Source: Paracoccus sp. M683 (GTDB lineage Bacteria; Pseudomonadota; Alphaproteobacteria; Rhodobacterales; Rhodobacteraceae). From it: 64,000 nucleotides of DNA. Under the pieces are notes generated by a model. The model saw only the letters and a program-made list of their open reading frames with translations, ran no database searches and had not been told where the DNA came from. This document shows positions 38,948 through 48,723 of this stretch, piece by piece. The stretch is from assembly GCF_007096355.1 (NCBI RefSeq), contig NZ_VKDF01000004.1:372357-436356 (forward strand), read 5' to 3'. The position numbers and the translations under genes are program-made. Within the stretch, counting starts at the first letter, position 1. Each line of letters opens with the position of its first letter.

Positions 38948-40231
38948 TTATTGACCTGCATTTGCCGTGGTGTTCAACAGATCATCCAGAACCAGCGCCA
39001 TCACGCGCGCGCTGTCCAGCATGTCCTGCACGCCCACCCATTCATCGGGCTGATGCGCCAGATCCAGCACGCCCGGCCCATAGGCGATACAGTTCTTCAG
39101 CTTGCCGATGCGGTCGATATGCTTCTGGTCATAGGTGCCTGGCGACACGACATAGCCTGCCTCGCGGCCCAGCACACGTTCAATCGCGGCGGCCGTTGAA
39201 CGAACCACCGGCGCATCCTTGTCGGTCATCGAGGGGATCACCTGAAACAGGTCGCGGATTTCATATTTGAACGAGGGCCGTCGCGCCTTTACCCGCTCCA
39301 TCAGGGCGGTGACCTCGGATTTGACCTCGGCCAGATCCTCTTCGATCAGGAAACGGCGGTCGATCACGATGCGGCAGCGGTCGGGAACGCAGGGGGTGGG
39401 CAGGCCGGTGAAATCCTCGGGCTGTTCCACCGCGCCGCCATGGATCGAGTTGATGTTCAGCGTGGATGACCGTGCGCCTTCGGGGATCACCGGCATTTCC
39501 GTGTGCTTGCCCGCCAGCAGGGGCCACAGCGTCGCCTCCATCTCGTCCATCACGGCACCCATATGGCGCACGGCGCAATCGCCAAGAAAGGGCATCGAGC
39601 CATGGGCGATGCGGCCCTGCGTTTCAATTTCGGCCCACCAGACGCCGCGATGGCCCAGGCAGATGCGATCCTTGTGCAGCGGTTCGGGGATGATGACATG
39701 GCCCACATGCGCAAAGGCGCCCTGCTGGGCCAGATAGGCCACGCCGCCATAGCCGCCCGATTCCTCGTCCGCCGTGGCACTGATCTCGATCTGGCCGGCA
39801 TGGTCGGGGTTCAGCGCGACGAAGGCCTCGGCCGCGATGATTGACGCCGCCAGGCCGCCTTTCATGTCGCAGGCGCCCCGGCCATAGATGCGGTCGCCCT
39901 GCAATTCGCCGCCGAACGGGTCGCGGGTCCAGCCGTGCCCGACCTCGACCACGTCATGATGGCTGTTGAAATGCACGCATTCCCCGGGCCGGGCGCCCTT
40001 GTGGCGGGCGACGATGTTCCAGCGCGGAAAATCCTCGCTGTCGCCGGGTGCGCCATGGGCGCGGATCAGCTCGCAAGCCCAGCCCTGCGGGGCCATGCGG
40101 GCCTCGATATAGTCGCAAATCTCGCGATAACGCCGCCCCGGCGGGTTCAGCGTGGCGATGCGGATCAGATCCTGCGTCAGCGCGATCAGCGCGGCGCTGC
40201 GGCTTTCGATGGCAGATTTCAAGGCGTCCAT
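38948..40231 (-). CDS. M20-family deacylase (ArgE/DapE type)
   Basis: The 427-residue protein is a di-zinc M20 amidohydrolase: FNSHHDVVEVGHGW (metal-binding His/Asp), YGRGACDMKGGLAAS, TADEESGGYGG (catalytic and metal-binding Glu) and a C-terminal SPGTYDQKHI, LDLAHQPDEW. It likely hydrolyses an N-acylated amino acid such as acetylornithine or succinyl-diaminopimelate. The exact substrate is uncertain. ATG 40231 (MDALKSAIES) was preferred over TTG 40267. Confidence 0.88.
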   Translation of the reverse strand: MDALKSAIESRSAALIALTQDLIRIATLNPPGRRYREICDYIEARMAPQGWACELIRAHGAPGDSEDFPRWNIVARHKGARPGECVHFNSHHDVVEVGHGWTRDPFGGELQGDRIYGRGACDMKGGLAASIIAAEAFVALNPDHAGQIEISATADEESGGYGGVAYLAQQGAFAHVGHVIIPEPLHKDRICLGHRGVWWAEIETQGRIAHGSMPFLGDCAVRHMGAVMDEMEATLWPLLAGKHTEMPVIPEGARSSTLNINSIHGGAVEQPEDFTGLPTPCVPDRCRIVIDRRFLIEEDLAEVKSEVTALMERVKARRPSFKYEIRDLFQVIPSMTDKDAPVVRSTAAAIERVLGREAGYVVSPGTYDQKHIDRIGKLKNCIAYGPGVLDLAHQPDEWVGVQDMLDSARVMALVLDDLLNTTANAGQ

Positions 40232-40362
40232 GACGGGCAGGTTAGGCAGGGCACAGGGCGCTGACAACGGCGAAATTCGGCGCTATCGCGGCGGCTTGCC
40301 CTTGCGCGCGCGGGCATAAGACCTAACATCCTGCACAAGAACCAGTTCAGGGAGTGATGGCG

Positions 40363-41436
40363 ATGGCATCGTTGGAACAGCAGATCAAGGACAGCCAGCA
40401 GCAGGTTGCGGCGACGCAGGACAAGATCGCACAGATGACGGCGGCGCTGGACCGTGCGACGGCGCGGGCCGATGTGGCGGATCTGCCCATCGACGTGGCC
40501 AATGCGACCTTGCAGGATGTGCATACCCATACCGAGGCGATGAACGCCAATATCGCCGAGCTGATCATGGGGCTGGACGATGTCACCGCCGGCTTCTCGA
40601 AGGATTTCGAGGATCTGCGCAGCAAGACCGGATGGGAGAAATTCGTCGGCATCTTTGCCAGTGGCAAATCCGAGGCGATGCGTCAGGAACGTCTGCGCGG
40701 CGCCAGTATCGACGACAAGTTGCAGGATCTGATCGCCAAATCCGACACCATTACCCGGTTGTTGCAGGATCAGCTTGACCTGCTGAACGACCAGAAGGGC
40801 AAGGTCGAGACCAACCTGACCGGCACGCTGGAAGAACGCGAGGCGACGGTTGCGACGCTGGAAGCCCTGCGCGACCGGATCAAGGCGATGGACCCGCAGC
40901 TGATCGAGCTGGAAAACAAGATCTCGACCACCACCGACGCCACCGAACGCACGCGGCTGGAAACCGATCTGGCCAATGCGAACAAGGACCACAACGCGCT
41001 GGTCCAGGACGAACAGGTCGCGCTGGCCAAGTCGCAGACGCTGGAACGCTATATCGAGGCTGGCAAGACCTGGGTAGACAGCCTTCAGAATCAGGCCGCG
41101 ACCCAGATGGTGCTGATCAACAAATTGCAGACGGATACACGCCAGCGGGTCGTGCTGTATGACGCGCTGACCAAGTCGCTGAAAACCGCCCAGCAGCAGG
41201 ACATCGCCCACCGCATCAACGAAATCGGCGTGCGGACGGATCAAGAGGCGCAGGCCGCCATGGCCGCCATCGGCACCGCCACCAACGACCGCATGGCCGA
41301 CATGCTGGAAGCCCATGGCGATCACATGGTATTCGCCCGCAAGGTGCTGGAGGAAAAGGCCAAGGCCGACGAACGTTTCGCCCGCCGCTTTGCCGAGATC
41401 GTCAAGAAGCATGACAGCAACTTGTATGGCGGGTGA
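40363..41436 (+). CDS. cluster gene A: coiled-coil protein, TelA-like in outline
   Basis: The 357-residue protein is soluble and almost wholly helical, with heptad-like segments at about 1-40, 120-230 and 270-350. The Trp/Phe patch GWEKFVGIFASGKSEAMRQE (about 90-110) is conserved-looking. The order of helices and a late TWVDSLQNQAATQMVL segment recall TelA-type toxic-anion-resistance proteins, but the match is weak. ATG 40363 lies 8 bp after GGAG; GTG 40354 and ATG 40357 are alternatives. First gene of a ten-gene cluster. Confidence 0.7.
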   Translation: MASLEQQIKDSQQQVAATQDKIAQMTAALDRATARADVADLPIDVANATLQDVHTHTEAMNANIAELIMGLDDVTAGFSKDFEDLRSKTGWEKFVGIFASGKSEAMRQERLRGASIDDKLQDLIAKSDTITRLLQDQLDLLNDQKGKVETNLTGTLEEREATVATLEALRDRIKAMDPQLIELENKISTTTDATERTRLETDLANANKDHNALVQDEQVALAKSQTLERYIEAGKTWVDSLQNQAATQMVLINKLQTDTRQRVVLYDALTKSLKTAQQQDIAHRINEIGVRTDQEAQAAMAAIGTATNDRMADMLEAHGDHMVFARKVLEEKAKADERFARRFAEIVKKHDSNLYGG

Positions 41437-41827
41437 GGACGCCTATCGCGGACGGATCGGGCTGGTCTTTCTGGCTTGTGCGATCCTGACCGCGATCGGC
41501 GTTGTTGGCTTTGAATTGCAGCGTGGCACGGGTTTGATCGAGGCGATACTCGCGGGGATCAGCGGTGCCGTTGTGGGGGCTGCGTTGCCGATTGTCGCAT
41601 TGTTCGCGCTGGCCGCCATCGCATTCGGAGTGGCGGCGATCGGACTTTTAATCTGGGTTGCATTGGTTGGCGTCACTTCGATCCTGGCGGAAAGATGGAA
41701 GCGGTCGGTTCGGCACGCCTTCTGGCGGTCGGTAGAGCTTGCTGCAATGCCGGTGATTTGGATTGTCGGCACAAGCCTCGCATGGCTTTGGGGCGACGAC
41801 GGAAAGGCGGAACAGCGCGATGGCTGA
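41426..41827 (+). CDS. cluster gene B: small membrane protein
   Basis: The 133-residue protein has about four hydrophobic segments: 11-28, 38-62, 64-88 and 105-125. It overlaps the end of gene A by 11 bp and the start of gene C by 8 bp, so it is translated with them. No family is recognised. It ends in a charged tail GDDGKAEQRDG. Confidence 0.65.
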   Translation: MAGEDAYRGRIGLVFLACAILTAIGVVGFELQRGTGLIEAILAGISGAVVGAALPIVALFALAAIAFGVAAIGLLIWVALVGVTSILAERWKRSVRHAFWRSVELAAMPVIWIVGTSLAWLWGDDGKAEQRDG

Positions 41828-42953
41828 AACCGGCACCCTTGATGCTGACCACCGGCAGCTTGACGACGACCGGATCGCGCGGGCTTTCATCGACCAGACC
41901 CGGCTGATCGCCGCAACGCTGCGGGCAACGTTGGTCGAAACCGTCCGCGACGGCCTGTTTGCGCAGACCGAGACAGAGGTGATTGGCGGCTATATCGACG
42001 CGCTGAAAACCAGCATGGACGCGCTGGCGATGAAATACCTGATCGCGGGCCGGATCGAGGGGCCGCTGCGGCGTCACATGACCATCGACATCCATGAAAG
42101 CGGATTTCCGGTCTGGCAGGAAATCGCCCAGACCGCCGCCGATGCCGCACAGGCGCAGGCCGAACTGGCCCGCACTCCCGATGCGAGCGCGATCAAGGAT
42201 GACATGATCCGCCAGATCGTCGGCCAACTGAGCATCCCGACGCGGCTGCAATACGCCCTGTCGCAACGCTATTACTACGAGGCGCTTGCAAGGGGCGGGC
42301 TGTTCTGGCCGCAGATGCATCCGCAGGGCTATTGGGTTTCGGGCCATGACAGCCGCCGCCGGCGCTGGCTGGTGCATTGGGCGGTCTATGACAGCCAGTT
42401 GAACGTGCCGATCCTGTATCTGATGGATGTCGACGATACCGGCCGCCGACCGCTGACCGACGATCCGAAACGCTGGCCCGAGGTGCGGGCGCATCTTCTG
42501 GCGCAATCGGTGGCCGGGCTGCAACTGGTGACGATCGCGCAGGGGTTTGACCGCGATTTCGACTCGCTGCACCCCTATCGGCTGCGGCGGCTGACGCTTG
42601 GTCCGGCCTATTCCGCCGGTTTCACCACGCAGGAAGGCCCGATCCGCGAGGTGCTGGAAAACGCCAATGCCCCGGCGGGCGAGGATTGGGCCATGGCCAT
42701 GACCATCGAGGATCTTCAGGCCGAACGCGCGATCATGGAAACCAGCGGCCTGTTCGGCGTGACTGAACGGCAGGTTTTCCGGCTGGACCCGCTGAACCAG
42801 CACGGGGCGGGGCAGGGGGCGACCTCGGCCACACGGCTGCTGGTCTTGCCTCAGCGGCCCTATCAGGCGCTGGTGACGCTGGACCCGCCCGGTTTCCGAA
42901 ATATCCGCAAATATGTGCCCGGTCCCGATGGCCGGGTGACGGGTTATCGTTAG
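41820..42953 (+). CDS. cluster gene C: large protein of unknown function
   Basis: The 377-residue protein lacks a signal peptide or clear membrane segment. The first 140 residues are helical (IARAFIDQTRLIAATLRATLVETV, AQAQAELARTPD). The rest has a mixed fold with conserved-looking GLFWPQMHPQGYWVSG, WAVYDSQLNVPILYLMDVDD and ERAIMETSGLFGVTERQVFRLDP. No nucleotide-binding or catalytic motif is seen. GGAAAGGCGG at 41801-41810 precedes ATG 41820. It may belong to a recently catalogued DUF family that I cannot verify. Confidence 0.7.
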   Translation: MAETGTLDADHRQLDDDRIARAFIDQTRLIAATLRATLVETVRDGLFAQTETEVIGGYIDALKTSMDALAMKYLIAGRIEGPLRRHMTIDIHESGFPVWQEIAQTAADAAQAQAELARTPDASAIKDDMIRQIVGQLSIPTRLQYALSQRYYYEALARGGLFWPQMHPQGYWVSGHDSRRRRWLVHWAVYDSQLNVPILYLMDVDDTGRRPLTDDPKRWPEVRAHLLAQSVAGLQLVTIAQGFDRDFDSLHPYRLRRLTLGPAYSAGFTTQEGPIREVLENANAPAGEDWAMAMTIEDLQAERAIMETSGLFGVTERQVFRLDPLNQHGAGQGATSATRLLVLPQRPYQALVTLDPPGFRNIRKYVPGPDGRVTGYR

Positions 42954-42957
42954 GGCC

Positions 42958-43515
42958 GTGGCGGCGGGGGCGCATATCCTGTGGCGCCGGCTGGACCGGC
43001 CCGGTCATGATGCCTGCCGGTTGTGGTCCGAAGGCGCATTGTGGCGGATCGAGGGCATGGCGGTCTGGGCCGACGCGAGTGGCCCGGCCCAGATCGCATA
43101 TGAGGTTTCGGCCAGCGAGGATTGGGTAACCCGCAGCGCACGGCTGATGGGGCGCGCTGGAAAGCGGGCGGTCAGCCTGTCGATCCATCGCGACGATCTG
43201 GGAAACTGGCGGGTGAACGGCGAATCCGTGCCCGAGGTGACGGGCCTGCGCGATATCGACCTGGGCTTTACCCCAGCCACGAATACGCTGCCGATCCGCC
43301 GCATGCGCGCCGCGCGTCAGGACGGCGCTGATCTGGCTGGCGCATGGCTGGACCCGGATGACTGGCAGCTGAAGCCGCTGCCGCAGCATTACGAAAGGCG
43401 CGGGGACAATGGCTGGCATTACCGCTCGCCCAGCCATGATTTCACCGCGGATTTGACAATTGATGGCGACGGGCTGGTTACAGACTATCCGCCGCTTTGG
43501 ATTAAAGAGGTTTGA
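42958..43515 (+). CDS. cluster gene D: putative glycolipid-binding domain protein
   Basis: The 185-residue protein fits the putative glycolipid-binding family (Pfam Glycolipid_bind). Signs are an opening ILWRRLDRPGHDACRLW, ARLMGRAGKRAVSLSIHRDD, GNWRVNGESVPEVTGLRDID, LGFTPATNTLPIRRM and closing FTADLTIDGDGLVTDYPPLW. The fold resembles lipid-carrier beta barrels. The starting codon is GTG 42958, 4 bp after the gene C stop; its stop abuts the AAA+ start. Lipid binding is a family prediction, not shown. Confidence 0.75.
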   Translation: MAAGAHILWRRLDRPGHDACRLWSEGALWRIEGMAVWADASGPAQIAYEVSASEDWVTRSARLMGRAGKRAVSLSIHRDDLGNWRVNGESVPEVTGLRDIDLGFTPATNTLPIRRMRAARQDGADLAGAWLDPDDWQLKPLPQHYERRGDNGWHYRSPSHDFTADLTIDGDGLVTDYPPLWIKEV

Positions 43516-45456
43516 ATGGACGCGCGTAACGAAATGGAACTGCCCGAGGCCGAGATCAGGGCGCATTACGCTCAGGCGCTGAGCCTGCTGAACGGGTTCG
43601 ACCATGCCCCGCGCCTTGGAAAGCCAACCGCTGCCAGCGCCGCCGCCGCAACCACAGCGCCCGAACGCTCGCCCGGCATTCCCCGGACCTCGCGCTTTCG
43701 CTCTACCACGCCGGGGCTGGCGGGGCGCACGACCGCGCGGCCCTCGGGCGTGCAGCTGATCGACCGGATTGAAGGCATCGGCGGCGACGATCTTCCCTCG
43801 CCCGCCGCCGCGACTGCGGCGCGCGCCTTGCGCCGGGCGCTGGCCATCGCGCTGGCCGTTGCGGATGAGGTCGCCGCACGCTCTGGCGCGGCAGAAATGA
43901 AGCGCGCCAATCTGGAAGGCCGCCTGCCAGCGGAAAAGCGGACCGAGTTTGGTGAATTGCTGGCGGTGGAAGCACTGGCCGCGCTGTCCGTCTTTGCCAA
44001 TGCCACGGCCTTTCTGCTGGCCGAACATGCCGGCCCCGAAACGGTCGAAGGCATCACCGCCGACGAGATTCTGACCGACAGCCCGCTGACCGCCCTGCAA
44101 GGCGCGCTGTGGGAAATGGATCAGAACCTGACCCGCGCCAGTGATGACAAAACCCTGATTGCCGCCGCCATCGCCTTTGCCGAGGCGCTGTCAGCCGCCG
44201 TCGCTGCCCGCGCGGAAACCGCCCCCCGCACCGGCGCCTTCACCGGCGCAAGCTGGCGCGTGGCGGCTGATGATTTCCCCATCGCCGGCTTTGCCCCCGC
44301 GACAAAGGCGCGCGGCAAGCCGCTGATCATGGCCTTCAAGAAACCGGAAGAGGTGATCGGCAACGCCATTGCCAAGCATCAGGCGATGCGGCTGGCGCGG
44401 ATGCTGGCGGCCTATGATTTCGACCGGCGGATGAACCCTTTCGTGGAACTGGGTGGCTTTGTCTTTACCTTTCTGGGCGACGGCAAACCCGGCACCGGCA
44501 AGACCACGCTGATCCAGATGATGGCGGGGATGCTGAACGATTACTGCACCATTGGCGGCTATCCCTTCCGCTATGCCAACCTGTCCGTGGACAATATCGA
44601 CAGCTATCAGGGCAAGTCGGGCCAGAACGCGCGGGCCTTTATCGACAGCATCATCGACCCCTCGGTCATCGGTTTCGGCACCATCGACGATATCGACCAG
44701 ATCGCCGGCAAACGCGGCGACCGACAGTCATCCGCCGGTCAGCAGGAAATCACCGCCGTGCTGATGGAAGCCTTTGCCGGTGCCAGCACCGTGGTGCGCG
44801 GCAATTGCACATTCGGGATGTTTTCCAACTATGCCGAGAATATCGACGACGCCCTGCGCCAGCGCGCCGCCGCCCGTTTCCTGATCGACGGGCCAAAGAC
44901 GCGGGCCGATTACATCGACATTCTCTCGCTGCTTCTGGGCAAGCGCCACGACATCCCCGTCGGCCAGCACGATCTGATGAAGGCGCAGGCCATGGAAAAG
45001 GCCGTCGCAGAAAGCTATGAGGGCCATTCCCGCCCGCACGAGGCTGGCTTGGAAAAGGTCTTTGGTGAGGTCACGGCGCAATATGGCGATCTGACCGATC
45101 TGGCCGAACTGGGCAGCTATCTTTACGCCATTTCGCAGGCCGAGCCACGTTTCACCGGCCGCGCGGTCAAGAACATCACCGACGCGGTCAAGGCCCGCGC
45201 GATGGATTTCGACATGCCCGACGAGTGGTTCGAAACGCCCGAGCCGTTCCTGCACCAGCCCTATGCGCGCAAGCTTGAGATGATCTCGGCCCTGCGCCAG
45301 CCGATCACGACGCGGATGGTGGTGCAGGAAATCAACCGCTATGCCGACAGCGAGTGGCGCTATAGCGACAGCGCCGATGAACGCGCCATCGACGATGCAG
45401 TGCGCGGGATGGAGCGGATGGCCGAGGCGCAGAAGCGGTATCGGGGGGATGCCTAG
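43516..45456 (+). CDS. cluster gene E: AAA+ ATPase
   Basis: The 646-residue protein has an Ala/Arg-rich helical N-terminal half (1-270) of unknown type. An AAA+ core follows: Walker A GKPGTGKT at 323-330, Walker B-like GTIDDID at 388-394, and DDALRQRAAARF at 444-455 with candidate arginine fingers. GNAIAKHQAMRLARML (about 280-295) precedes the core. It probably forms a ring and supplies energy for the cluster. It begins directly after gene D and ends 3 bp before gene F. Confidence 0.85.
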   Translation: MDARNEMELPEAEIRAHYAQALSLLNGFDHAPRLGKPTAASAAAATTAPERSPGIPRTSRFRSTTPGLAGRTTARPSGVQLIDRIEGIGGDDLPSPAAATAARALRRALAIALAVADEVAARSGAAEMKRANLEGRLPAEKRTEFGELLAVEALAALSVFANATAFLLAEHAGPETVEGITADEILTDSPLTALQGALWEMDQNLTRASDDKTLIAAAIAFAEALSAAVAARAETAPRTGAFTGASWRVAADDFPIAGFAPATKARGKPLIMAFKKPEEVIGNAIAKHQAMRLARMLAAYDFDRRMNPFVELGGFVFTFLGDGKPGTGKTTLIQMMAGMLNDYCTIGGYPFRYANLSVDNIDSYQGKSGQNARAFIDSIIDPSVIGFGTIDDIDQIAGKRGDRQSSAGQQEITAVLMEAFAGASTVVRGNCTFGMFSNYAENIDDALRQRAAARFLIDGPKTRADYIDILSLLLGKRHDIPVGQHDLMKAQAMEKAVAESYEGHSRPHEAGLEKVFGEVTAQYGDLTDLAELGSYLYAISQAEPRFTGRAVKNITDAVKARAMDFDMPDEWFETPEPFLHQPYARKLEMISALRQPITTRMVVQEINRYADSEWRYSDSADERAIDDAVRGMERMAEAQKRYRGDA

Positions 45457-45459
45457 GCG

Positions 45460-45774
45460 ATGGCATTCTACTTTCCTCCGCCTTGGTATGTATTGCTGCT
45501 GTATACGTCGATCATCGCTGTTCTGCCGGCGCTTCTGTCGCTGTTGGTGATCTGGCTTGTCGAACGGCATGCTGCGCGATTGGGGATGGTTCAAATGCTG
45601 GTCATACAGGCATTAGGGCAAGCCATTGGTTTCGCGTCATTCATGGCCTTTCTGGGGCGGGATATGCGGGATATCATCAAGGTCGCGCCGATGATGCCGC
45701 TGTTCACAATCCCCGTTTGGGTCGGGGCTGTATGGCTTTATTCGCGATACGGGCGGCGGTTGGTTCGGGCATGA
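45460..45774 (+). CDS. cluster gene F: small membrane protein
   Basis: The 104-residue protein has three hydrophobic segments: about 6-32, 43-62 and 75-93. It starts with MAFYFPPPWYVLLLY. The stop overlaps an ATG at 45771 that opens the frame of the next membrane protein. No family is recognised. Confidence 0.65.
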   Translation: MAFYFPPPWYVLLLYTSIIAVLPALLSLLVIWLVERHAARLGMVQMLVIQALGQAIGFASFMAFLGRDMRDIIKVAPMMPLFTIPVWVGAVWLYSRYGRRLVRA

Positions 45775-45845
45775 GAATTGCGGATGCCATCAGCATGAAA
45801 CCAACCAATCAGCAGCGGTCGATGCCATCCGCATCCCCAAGGTGA
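45771..45845 (+). other. probable 5' part of frameshifted cluster gene G
   Basis: ATG 45771 overlaps the gene F stop (ATGA) and reads MRIADAISMKPTNQQ to a TGA at 45843-45845. Removing one base from the CCCC run at 45835-45838 would join it in frame to the membrane protein that continues to 46362. This suggests a frameshift mutation, a sequence error or programmed shifting. Confidence 0.5.
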
Positions 45846-45870
45846 CGCCATCACAAGTTCCCCGATCATA

Positions 45871-46362
45871 TTGGCACTGGCCGGCCGGTTTCTTGGAACC
45901 CTGTTGCCAAGTGGCGTGGTCCAGAATGCAGTGAATGAATGGATCAAGGGTGACAGCCTGTTCAAATCGCTGATCACGCTGCTGGTCGGTGCTACGGTCC
46001 TTGCCGCCGCTTGCCTGGTGTTCCTGTCGCCGACCACGCCCCTGCGCCAGACCGCTGCATATGTCCGCTTGCCTGATGGGTTGATCGCCTTGGCGATATT
46101 CTGGCCGCCTGTCGCCCTGGGCGCGACTTGGGCGCTGTTGCGCGGCAAGTCCGGCCATCTCGTTCTTGCGATCGTTGTGGGCTCGCTGCTTACGTTGGGT
46201 GCAGTGTTGTTCGGATGCTCGGCATTTTTTGGCGTCTTGTCTTTGGTTGACGCTTGCAGCGCCTCGAACCAGGGCATTTTGCGGGCGTTCTTCGCCATGT
46301 TGACGGCGCCGCTGTTTCTGGGTGCAATCTCGGGACGATTTCAAAGGAGCATGCTGCCATGA
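45871..46362 (+). CDS. cluster gene G: membrane protein, apparent 5' frameshift
   Basis: The open frame from TTG 45871 gives 163 residues with about four membrane segments (34-52, 68-88, 94-118, 138-154). TTG 45871 has no ribosome site near it. The sequence just before (GDAITSSPIIL) reads well as protein, so the natural start is likely ATG 45771 through a one-base shift. That would give about 196 residues. Its stop overlaps the gene H start by ATGA. Confidence 0.6.
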   Translation: MALAGRFLGTLLPSGVVQNAVNEWIKGDSLFKSLITLLVGATVLAAACLVFLSPTTPLRQTAAYVRLPDGLIALAIFWPPVALGATWALLRGKSGHLVLAIVVGSLLTLGAVLFGCSAFFGVLSLVDACSASNQGILRAFFAMLTAPLFLGAISGRFQRSMLP

Positions 46363-47735
46363 AACGCCTCATCGAAAAGGGCCTGATGTTTGGCAACCTG
46401 ATCCGGGTGAACTCGACCGCTTGGGTCGGGCTTTATAACCGTGCGCTGAAAAAGATCACCGGCCGCGAAACCGCGCTGACGGAATTTCACATCGACATCA
46501 GCGGCTATTCCCCCGAAATCGGGGATGAGCTGGGCGATATGGGTTATCTGCGTCCCGATGGCGGCAACCGTCAGTTCATCCTGCTGACGACCGAGCAAAA
46601 GACCGCGCCGCTGCTGAACGCGGATCTGTCCGTGCTGCGCGACGTGCTGCGTGCCTTTATCGAGGATAACGAAAGCCAGCTGTTCAGCCTGACTGCCCGC
46701 GATGCGGTGCTGGGCGAGATCGACGATCAGGTCTGGCAGGTCTCGGGTCCGGCGGATCTGCTGAACATCCGTCACCTGAAGGTCAGCGCCGATACCACCG
46801 GCAATCACGTGGCCGAGGCCGACCGGCTGACCGCCATGATCCAGCAGTTCCGCGCCCAGCCCGATGCCTGGTGGGATGATGTGCTGATCGCGCGGATGAT
46901 CGAGCAGGCGCAGAAATCCGGCGATGTGCTGCGCAACCCCGTGCATCTGCAAAAGACCGATTTCGAGGTTCCCGATTTCTGGACAGCCGATTTCGGCGGT
47001 GTCTATGTCATGCGCTCGGCCAAGCAGCCGGCGATGATCTTTGCCGATCCCGCGCAGCGCATCGACATCCATGGCACCACCACCATGTCGCTGGATCAGC
47101 GCAATGCCATTGCCGCCTGGCTGGCCCGCAATGCGCTGGCCGAACCGATCATCAGCGCGCGCGGCGCCGACGCCGCGCCGATCCTGCGCCAGAAGATCGA
47201 CTTTGTGCTGGTCGACGCCGCCACCCAACTAAAAATCGACACCGGCAACAGCAGCCGGGCCGAGCTGCGCCGCGCCGCCGCCCGCATGGGCAGCCAGTTG
47301 CCGGCCGAGGTCCGGGGCCTGGCCAATCTGCTGCGCTATGCCGAACAGGGTGGCGACTGGCCGGTCATCGACAGCAGCGATCCGGCCTATTTCTATGCCA
47401 TCCGCGCCACGCCGGGGCCGGCGCGCGATCTGGTAAATCGGATGCTGTCCGAACTGGGCCCCGATGATGTGCGTCAGCTGTTCATCACCCATAAGCCGCT
47501 GTTCTATCGGCTGTATCAGACCTGGGACGACCAAAAGCGCGAATATGTGGCCGAGTTTCTGGCCCGCGAATACCAGATCGACAAACAAGGCACCCGCGAC
47601 GCCTTGTTCGGGCCGGAACCGGGCATGGCCGAACCCGAACGCCAGCAGCCTGTCGCTGGCCCATGGGGTGCCGCGCGTGCTAGCCTGACCGAGGCGGCCG
47701 CCGTGCCGAATGTCAAAGGCCCATGGGGAGGCTGA
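46359..47735 (+). CDS. cluster gene H: large protein of unknown function (possibly DUF6638)
   Basis: The 458-residue protein has no signal peptide. It begins MKRLIEKGLMFGNLIRVNS and includes HIDISGYSPEIGDELGDMGYL, FWTADFGGVYVMRS and a C-terminal repeat of GPWG (AGPWGAARAS, KGPWGG). GPWG-type tails may bind a partner. I think this is the family listed as DUF6638, but that name is recalled, not checked. AAAGGAG at 46343-46349 precedes ATG 46359. Confidence 0.7.
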   Translation: MKRLIEKGLMFGNLIRVNSTAWVGLYNRALKKITGRETALTEFHIDISGYSPEIGDELGDMGYLRPDGGNRQFILLTTEQKTAPLLNADLSVLRDVLRAFIEDNESQLFSLTARDAVLGEIDDQVWQVSGPADLLNIRHLKVSADTTGNHVAEADRLTAMIQQFRAQPDAWWDDVLIARMIEQAQKSGDVLRNPVHLQKTDFEVPDFWTADFGGVYVMRSAKQPAMIFADPAQRIDIHGTTTMSLDQRNAIAAWLARNALAEPIISARGADAAPILRQKIDFVLVDAATQLKIDTGNSSRAELRRAAARMGSQLPAEVRGLANLLRYAEQGGDWPVIDSSDPAYFYAIRATPGPARDLVNRMLSELGPDDVRQLFITHKPLFYRLYQTWDDQKREYVAEFLAREYQIDKQGTRDALFGPEPGMAEPERQQPVAGPWGAARASLTEAAAVPNVKGPWGG

Positions 47736-47738
47736 CGG

Positions 47739-48020
47739 GTGATCGCACTGTTTCGATTGATGCTTTTGGTGCTGTTGCTGGAAGCGCTGTTCTATTTCCT
47801 GTTCTGGATCTATATCCGCTCGCTTCGGCGTGAAACGCTGGAAGGTGAATGGGACCAACGCCATCCCGACAAGGCAGGGAACAACCCGCAGCGCGCCGAG
47901 TTTGTTCGAAAGTCGATGGTCGGATTCGAAAAAAGCCTGCGGGCGCGGTTGCTGTGGCTGGTCTTTATCCTGCCCACGGCCGCGATCATGGGGATCGTCT
48001 ATTGGGTCAACTGGCAGTAA
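47739..48020 (+). CDS. cluster gene I: small membrane protein
   Basis: The 93-residue protein has membrane segments at about 2-26 and 70-90 with a charged loop between (RRETLEGEWDQRHPDKAG). GTG 47739 follows GGGGAGG at 47725-47731. It starts 3 bp after gene H. No family is recognised. Confidence 0.65.
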   Translation: MIALFRLMLLVLLLEALFYFLFWIYIRSLRRETLEGEWDQRHPDKAGNNPQRAEFVRKSMVGFEKSLRARLLWLVFILPTAAIMGIVYWVNWQ

Positions 48021-48030
48021 GGGGCCGCAA

Positions 48031-48723
48031 ATGTATTATGTAAAGGTCGTCTTTGGGGTGCTGCTGGGCGTGATCGTCTTTGCCTTTCTGGACTATACGC
48101 TGCCTTCGAAGAATACGGTCAGGATCACCAATACCTATAACCGGCTGACCTATATCAGCCCCACCAACAGCATCTTCTATGCCAGCGACGATACCGGCAC
48201 GGTCGAGAACCAGCAGGGTCAGCGCGACATACGTTTCATCGACACGGTGCGCCCCAACGGCAAGGTCTTTGTCTATCGTAACGAGGATACCGGCTGGATC
48301 TGGCCGCCTTATTTCAAATATGACAGCTCGAACCTGCATTCCGAGGCGACGAACCTGCAATCGACGGCACAAAGCCCGCAATGGGTCAGCGTCACGGCCT
48401 ATGGCTGGCGGGTGCCGTGGCTGTCGATCTATCCCAATGCGATTTCCATCGACACGGTGGCCGGTCCGACCGAAAGCCCGCGCAACTGGCCTGCGATCAT
48501 CATCTGCACCGTGCTGCTGGTTTTCCTGCTGCTGATCTGGCGCATGTGGGCGCAGTTCCGCCAGCGCACCATCGACCCGGCCGTCGCCCGCGTGGATCAG
48601 GCCTGGGACGACGTCGAGACCCGCGCCGACGCCGCCCGCGACCGCGTCGTATCCGAGGCCAGCGAAGCCAAGGGTCGGTTCAGCGGTTGGTTGGGGACGT
48701 GGCGGGGCAAGCCTCGCCCCTGA
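48031..48723 (+). CDS. cluster gene J: DUF1523-family membrane protein
   Basis: The 230-residue protein has an N-terminal membrane helix (about 2-22, VKVVFGVLLGVIVFAFLDY). A probable periplasmic domain follows (TVRITNTYNRLTYISPTNS, IDTVRPNGKVFVYRNEDTGW). A second helix spans about 152-172, and the charged C-terminus contains VDQAWDDVETRADAARDRV. This matches the DUF1523 family of Rhodobacterales, function unknown. It starts 10 bp after gene I and is the last gene of the cluster. Confidence 0.8.
   Translation: MYYVKVVFGVLLGVIVFAFLDYTLPSKNTVRITNTYNRLTYISPTNSIFYASDDTGTVENQQGQRDIRFIDTVRPNGKVFVYRNEDTGWIWPPYFKYDSSNLHSEATNLQSTAQSPQWVSVTAYGWRVPWLSIYPNAISIDTVAGPTESPRNWPAIIICTVLLVFLLLIWRMWAQFRQRTIDPAVARVDQAWDDVETRADAARDRVVSEASEAKGRFSGWLGTWRGKPRP

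Follow-up and report, generated by a model that had tools for sequence, protein, structure and literature searches.

Do ten tightly packed genes make up one machine, or a machine together with its passengers? This question is raised by positions 40363-48723 on the + strand of a window of DNA from Paracoccus sp. M683, the window being the whole 64,000-nucleotide stretch of contig NZ_VKDF01000004.1 that was analysed. An initial annotation treated the genes in this run, which are labelled A to J, as a single system and proposed that it might move envelope lipids, confer stress resistance, or act in defence. The cluster is real and its unity was rightly called, and within it a conserved machine is mixed with strain-specific cargo. 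The new points are a core that is shared across classes, a membrane module that is swapped, hypervariable slots, and two proteins, C and H, whose confident models resemble nothing clearly.

A core of four genes in constant order

E was found in 175 distinct loci, and A, C, E, and H were all present in 165 of these, the window's own locus included. The A-C-E-H order and the single strand were identical in 165 of the 165 loci holding all four genes; J was present in 156 of them and a detectable I in 124. Loci of the window's family (Rhodobacteraceae) have A-C-E-H-I-J in constant order on one strand, and among 80 named loci 49 had this arrangement, 24 lacked a detectable I, and 7 were otherwise arranged or incomplete. 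Across Alphaproteobacteria, and in a few Gammaproteobacteria, the core keeps its order and the genes downstream of H are swapped: I and J (a DUF1523 protein) in Rhodobacterales; a DUF2333 membrane protein in Rhizobiaceae, as seen in the annotated S. meliloti locus and in 4 of 4 further loci tested (L266-L269); and no such partner in the two Vibrio loci examined (L096 and L098), where H is directly followed by an mfd gene; both lie on plasmid records of 0.88-0.93 Mb. Because A, C, E, and H stand in one order on one strand in 165 of the 175 loci, the single-system idea holds for this core and probably for I and J; it does not extend to B, D, F, and G. In a comparison of gene order, which the initial annotation had proposed as a check, the core genes were not found scattered among relatives, with the exceptions of genomes G874, G118, and the pair G862/G892 described below. 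A is the best conserved core gene, with a median identity of 85% over 28 genus loci; the corresponding values are 74% for C, 80% for E, 71% for H, 62% for I, and 72% for J, and 60% for D (15 loci).

E has the motifs of a classic AAA remodeller. Among 164 sequences, the Walker A motif (GDGKPGTGKT in the window) was conserved in 163, the Asp-Asp Walker B (IDDID) in 164, the YQGKS of the pore loop (SYQGKSGQ, assigned from sequence by its position after Walker A) in 163, and the ALRQRA of the second region of homology (SRH) in 161. Walker A and an SRH with arginine fingers are classic features of AAA remodellers, and the combination of both, intact, with an aromatic pore loop points to a hexamer that threads or remodels a protein. 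PDB sequence searches matched E to the i-AAA protease, fidgetin-like 1, katanin, Vps4, and proteasomal ATPases, with E-values of 5.8e-5 to 0.099 (8.7e-5 to 0.0095 in a second search). Like the Vps4, katanin/fidgetin, FtsH-type, Rpt, and TRIP13/Pch2 proteins, E has Walker A, the pore-loop aromatic residue, and the SRH, but it matches such remodellers over the AAA module only, its N-terminal region of ~280 residues being unmatched in Pfam and PDB sequence searches. It differs from them also in a Walker B that ends in Asp-Asp: none of the 164 sequences has the catalytic glutamate that most AAA proteins carry where E has aspartate. In two loci from records titled Halomonas and in genome G476, which lies outside the class (L129, L132, and L270), the core is present and E lacks the exact ALRQRA, which suggests transfer and divergence.

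AlphaFold2 models of the soluble core proteins C and H had predicted local distance difference test (pLDDT) scores of 90.6 and 85.9, respectively. C had no Foldseek match in the PDB at E<=0.001, the top row being a lipid-bound toluene-tolerance protein with E 0.2 and a TM score of 0.09. Residues ~176-307 of C paired with T-fold enzymes (uricase, QueF, and GTP cyclohydrolase I) in VIA at Z 4-5.7, the best rows being a QueF-like protein (Z 5.7, root-mean-square deviation 4.1, 93 residues aligned) and uricase (Z 5.2), all below the stated noise level of 7-8, and we treat this weak likeness as a lead only. H had no PDB (Foldseek) or viral fold match at E<=0.001, with a best VIA Z of 3.2, and comparison with PDB sequence profiles yielded nothing above chance level for A, C, and H. 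Such a lack of matches for the C and H models is no proof of new folds.

Relatives of E are widespread. In counts that include the window's own genome, E was present in 63 of 149 sampled genomes of the family, in 35 of 121 genus genomes (two weak matches excluded), and in 26 of 398 Pseudomonadota, of which 14 belong to the family, 11 are other Alphaproteobacteria, and 1 lies outside the class. A sample of 289 Alphaproteobacteria had E in 5 genomes, and DUF6638, the family of H, scored above its cut-off in the same 5. Scanning a species-level genome collection gave at least 521 candidate relatives of E, the best 80 of which came mostly from Rhodobacterales, with some from Stappiaceae and Aestuariispira and the two from records titled Halomonas; E relatives were also carried on 10 plasmid records, from Sinorhizobium, Rhizobium, Shinella, and Vibrio. 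Despite this breadth, our literature search found no paper naming DUF6638. A phage or prophage origin was rejected, as E had no match in 50,697 phage records and no relative in a scan of viral contigs.

Hypervariable slots and their contents

Slots between the core genes were surveyed in 130 distinct loci by collecting open reading frames (ORFs) of at least 60 residues from gaps of more than 200 bp. Such ORFs were present between A and C in 56 loci, between C and E in 11, and between E and H in 97. Most had the direction of the operon: 56 of 65 A-C ORFs, 10 of 11 C-E ORFs, and 118 of 134 E-H ORFs (16 on the - strand) lay on the + strand, and these + strand ORFs fell into 45, 9, and 60 clusters, respectively. 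When genus loci were added, the estimated E-H gap in 165 loci was more than 200 bp in 120, at most 60 bp in 31, and a 4-bp overlap in 12, the last of which looks like the empty state of the slot. At least one hydrophobic segment was found in 44 of 56 A-C ORFs and 81 of 118 E-H ORFs, compared with 55 of 317 flanking ORFs, an excess with Fisher P values of 5e-19 (A-C) and 2e-23 (E-H) that are not strict probabilities, as the loci are related. The flanking ORFs were also diverse (317 ORFs in 178 clusters) because the operon occupies different places in different genera, and comparison at a fixed site within one genus is therefore the stronger evidence for turnover.

The window's genus provides such a site, marked by the left neighbour in 28 of 31 loci and by the downstream gene dn2 in 17 of 31. 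In L231, the closest relative, E is 89-90% and A 93% identical to the window's genes, and five flanking genes are 60-92% identical (the left neighbour 89%, the gene further left 60%, and the downstream genes 77-92%); other small ORFs stand in the place of B, F, and G. Comparison by tblastn (E<=1e-3) with 183 other loci, which are stretches around the cluster and not whole genomes, gave no match for B, F, or G. D matched in 18 of the 183, all within the genus, and was unmatched in 13 of the 31 genus loci and in every locus outside the genus. We regard B, D, F, and G as probable cargo of the window's strain. Searching 10 genus genomes that lack E for an empty site gave one close match to the downstream LysR-type gene, with the other flanking genes not beside it; since this gene occurs in only 5 of the 31 genus loci, it marks the site poorly, and an empty site was not demonstrated.

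Most cargo had no match to any family. Among 60 E-H representatives, Pfam identified one member each of Mrr_N/Mrr_cat, DUF559, AbiJ_NTD4, MTES_1575, NA-iREase1, DUF2188, DUF2971, DUF3825, BrkB, RRG7, and a HATPase, and among 54 A-C and C-E representatives it identified Phd/YefM, DUF4279, and D itself; PHROGs matches of the cargo include HNH endonucleases. For E-H cargo, 21 PADLOC models matched at E<=1e-3 and trace to 7 or 8 of the 60 representatives. Six of these were located, in L105 (Mrr), L045 (DrmA piece), L097 (DUF559), L071 (type IV restriction piece), L102 (CARF-HEPN piece), and L180 (PDC-S31); two PDC-S16 models belong to one or two further representatives, which were not among the 30 members scanned singly. 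One recurrent E-H cargo (the L150 cluster, 13 ORFs) reaches 315 residues and has an N-terminal membrane part followed by a charged coiled-coil region, which to our eye recalls abortive-infection membrane proteins, a likeness that no Pfam match backs.

These results divide the earlier suggestion of a role in defence. Some slot genes are indeed of defence type (Mrr, DUF559, AbiJ-NTD4, and Phd/YefM), but the core matches no catalogued anti-phage system in PADLOC, the best model, TRIP13, matching E at 1.4e-5 and being generic. Searches of the ten products against NCBIfam and PADLOC gave nothing beyond generic AAA, coiled-coil, or chance-level matches, and a known defence system was rejected on this basis. 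CBASS with Cap6/TRIP13 was likewise rejected, since Pfam found no HORMA or CD-NTase partner, nor any MIT or protease partner, among the ten products.

Possible functions of the core and its cargo

From this observed architecture we infer a function, tentatively and with somewhat less than even confidence: a conserved ATP-driven machine with exchangeable cargo, serving stress or conflict with mobile DNA. E would assemble as a hexamer whose pore-loop tyrosine threads and remodels a protein partner. A would be the likeliest substrate or adaptor, because it is the best conserved partner and is predicted to form a coiled coil; C and H would act as soluble regulators or coupling factors, and I and J (or DUF2333) would attach the complex to the inner membrane. 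The proteins of the slots, co-expressed with the core, would be exchangeable partners or effectors of this constant ATP-driven module, and swapping the cargo should then swap the phenotype.

Several lines of evidence argue for such a machine. First, order and strand are constant, the motifs of E are kept, and E and DUF6638 co-occur. Second, A, C, and H were lost together in two sister species (L258/L259; G892, G862), in which D-E-I-J still occupies the usual site but the locus no longer contains A, C, or H. Neither A nor DUF6638 turned up when the whole genomes were searched; the absence of C applies to the locus only, as no genome-wide search for C was made. E, which is 98% identical between the two and has intact motifs, outlived its partners at least briefly. 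Third, the membrane module is swapped and the slots are rich in membrane segments, turn over fast at a fixed site, and include defence-type cargo. The core and its mostly membrane cargo are coupled by position, which suggests that they work together. Operons or hotspots that carry exchangeable defence or effector genes likewise have an invariant set of genes flanking a hypervariable co-directional slot, and the slot here, like theirs, sometimes holds Mrr, AbiJ-NTD4, or antitoxin genes.

Other observations weigh against the machine with exchangeable cargo. The same two sister species retain E without A, C, and H. They account for two of the ten E loci that lack the full core; five more are interrupted by contig ends or N, and the others are L106 and L086/L238. 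In L086 and L238 there is no H within 5.9 and 8.6 kb downstream of E, respectively, and in the two draft genomes G874 (L238/L283) and G118 (L086/L284) H-I-J lies on a different contig from A-C-E, a split exactly at the E-H slot that may reflect rearrangement or assembly error. L106, a contig of a metagenome-assembled genome, has E alone with no A, C, or H within 10 kb, through what may be mis-assembly or true loss. In the two Vibrio loci J is unmatched, and the annotation shows no DUF2333 close by. With aspartate in place of the catalytic glutamate, the ATPase rate of E is uncertain. The C-E slot is not membrane-rich, with a hydrophobic segment in 3 of 10 ORFs, and the hydropathy rule is crude, as it also flags alanine-rich stretches of E. 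Several of the PADLOC cargo matches are partial. In the flanks, the PADLOC matches were two CARF3 models, found in 1 or 2 of the 60 representatives sampled (60 of the 178 clusters, from genes within ~3 kb), and the difference from the cargo has P of 0.03 to 0.16 (0.11 for an assumed count of 6 versus 1), so that defence enrichment of the slots is suggested and not established. Finally, in contrast to such hotspots, the cargo lies inside the operon and mostly encodes small membrane proteins, and the flanks that were sampled do not amount to defence islands.

It is somewhat unlikely that the core is instead an ordinary cell-envelope or stress machine, with the slots as tolerated landing places for neutral cargo and co-direction kept only to maintain the expression of H, I, and J. 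This alternative would accommodate sampled flanking genes that are not defence-rich, genomes without E-H cargo (among them the 12 of 165 loci with a 4-bp E/H overlap), the fixed site of the core in the genus, the S. meliloti locus, in which an endonuclease-domain gene and an insertion sequence stand between E and H, and the two draft genomes in which the operon is broken at the E-H slot. Random captures, however, should not have membrane segments at four times the frequency of neighbouring genes, as the E-H and A-C occupants do.

A new type of modular ATP-driven conflict system, in which an A-C-E-H core docked to the inner membrane would activate or restrain a strain-specific effector encoded in the operon, is unlikely. 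If such a system did exist, related bacteria would retain the motor and exchange only the effector (small membrane proteins, Mrr-type nucleases, or other proteins), and the slot would give a route to unknown effectors by position alone. The cluster offers for study an AAA motor with an unusual Walker B and the modelled proteins C and H.

The envelope-lipid proposal, an ATP-driven machine that moves or remodels lipids with D binding glycolipid, appears quite improbable. The presence of membrane partners, either I and J or DUF2333, would suit it. SMc02733 of S. meliloti may be gene E, if locus tags run in order from choX (SMc02737). A screen for DNA targets of ChvI, an S. meliloti regulator, lists a fragment that lies within SMc02733 (PMC3687685). 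The first structure of PF06475, to which D belongs, is reported to recall lipoprotein localization factors (PMC2954207). The proposal leaned on D, however, and D is an accessory gene restricted to the genus, so that the proposal loses its main support; C and H add no significant structural match, the lipid-bound protein at the top of the Foldseek rows for C included.

Finally, a TelA-type tellurite or toxic-anion resistance module, raised by the earlier description of A as TelA-like, is very unlikely: A is a predicted helical protein of similar length, in which hhalign paired RSKTGWEKFVG with RDRSWWEKLMG of the genome's TelA and gave a longer pairing collinear over 151 columns, but these pairings, from shallow profiles, had probabilities of 0.9% and 0.3%, PF05816 was not among the Pfam families listed for A at E<=1, and the sole PF05816 match of the genome lies on another contig (G000:C1:70638-71630).

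The ten genes in the window

A sequence check of the window found the frames of all ten genes open on the + strand, as first annotated, with neighbouring genes overlapping by 4-11 bp or standing 0-10 bp apart, F-G being the exception; the tight, co-directional packing was thus described correctly. The families that had been named for D, E, and J also proved right by Pfam: D is PF06475 (E 8.7e-47), E is PF00004 (AAA; E 9.6e-14, 52.4 bits against a gathering score of 21.2), and J is PF07509/DUF1523 (E 6.4e-65, 218.2 bits against a cut-off of 23). H is PF20343/DUF6638 (E 1.9e-177, 591 bits against a cut-off of 27), and A, B, C, F, G, and I had no Pfam family above its cut-off. H and J are thus members of their families by a wide margin, and neither family has a stated function; literature naming DUF1523 was seemingly unrelated, judged by title.

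Table. Positions of the ten genes and the left neighbour in the window
Feature	Position	Strand	Description
Gene A, core	40363..41436	+	357-residue predicted coiled-coil protein, no transmembrane segment
Gene B, slot A-C occupant	41426..41827	+	Small membrane protein, 3 hydropathy peaks
Gene C, core	41820..42953	+	377-residue soluble protein
Gene D, accessory, slot C-E	42958..43515	+	PF06475 putative glycolipid-binding protein
Gene E, core	43516..45456	+	Classic AAA ATPase, N-terminal region of ~280 residues
Gene F, slot E-H occupant	45460..45774	+	Small membrane protein
Gene G, slot E-H occupant	within 45799..46362	+	Polytopic membrane protein
Gene H, core	46359..47735	+	DUF6638 (PF20343), 458 residues, soluble
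Gene I, membrane partner	47739..48020	+	93 residues, two hydropathy peaks, Rhodobacterales type
Gene J, membrane partner	48031..48723	+	DUF1523 (PF07509), hydropathy peaks near residues 1 and 150
Left neighbour, divergent gene	38948..40267	-	Marks fixed site in genus; putative M20 peptidase

Gene G had been called frameshifted. Its frame is open throughout 45799-46362 and lacks only an ATG, so that translation from a GTG or TTG codon would be enough, possibly the TTG at 45871 or a GTG further downstream, and no frameshift is required; with G unmatched in the other loci, its sequence does not decide between the two.

No promoter motif common to all loci was found upstream of A; of 163 upstream regions, 11 contain CCTAACAT. 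Several loci of the genus have a CTTG...CCTAACAT-like pattern upstream of A, possibly a promoter: it lies at 40270-40353 in the window and also occurs in L231, L233, L251, and L253.

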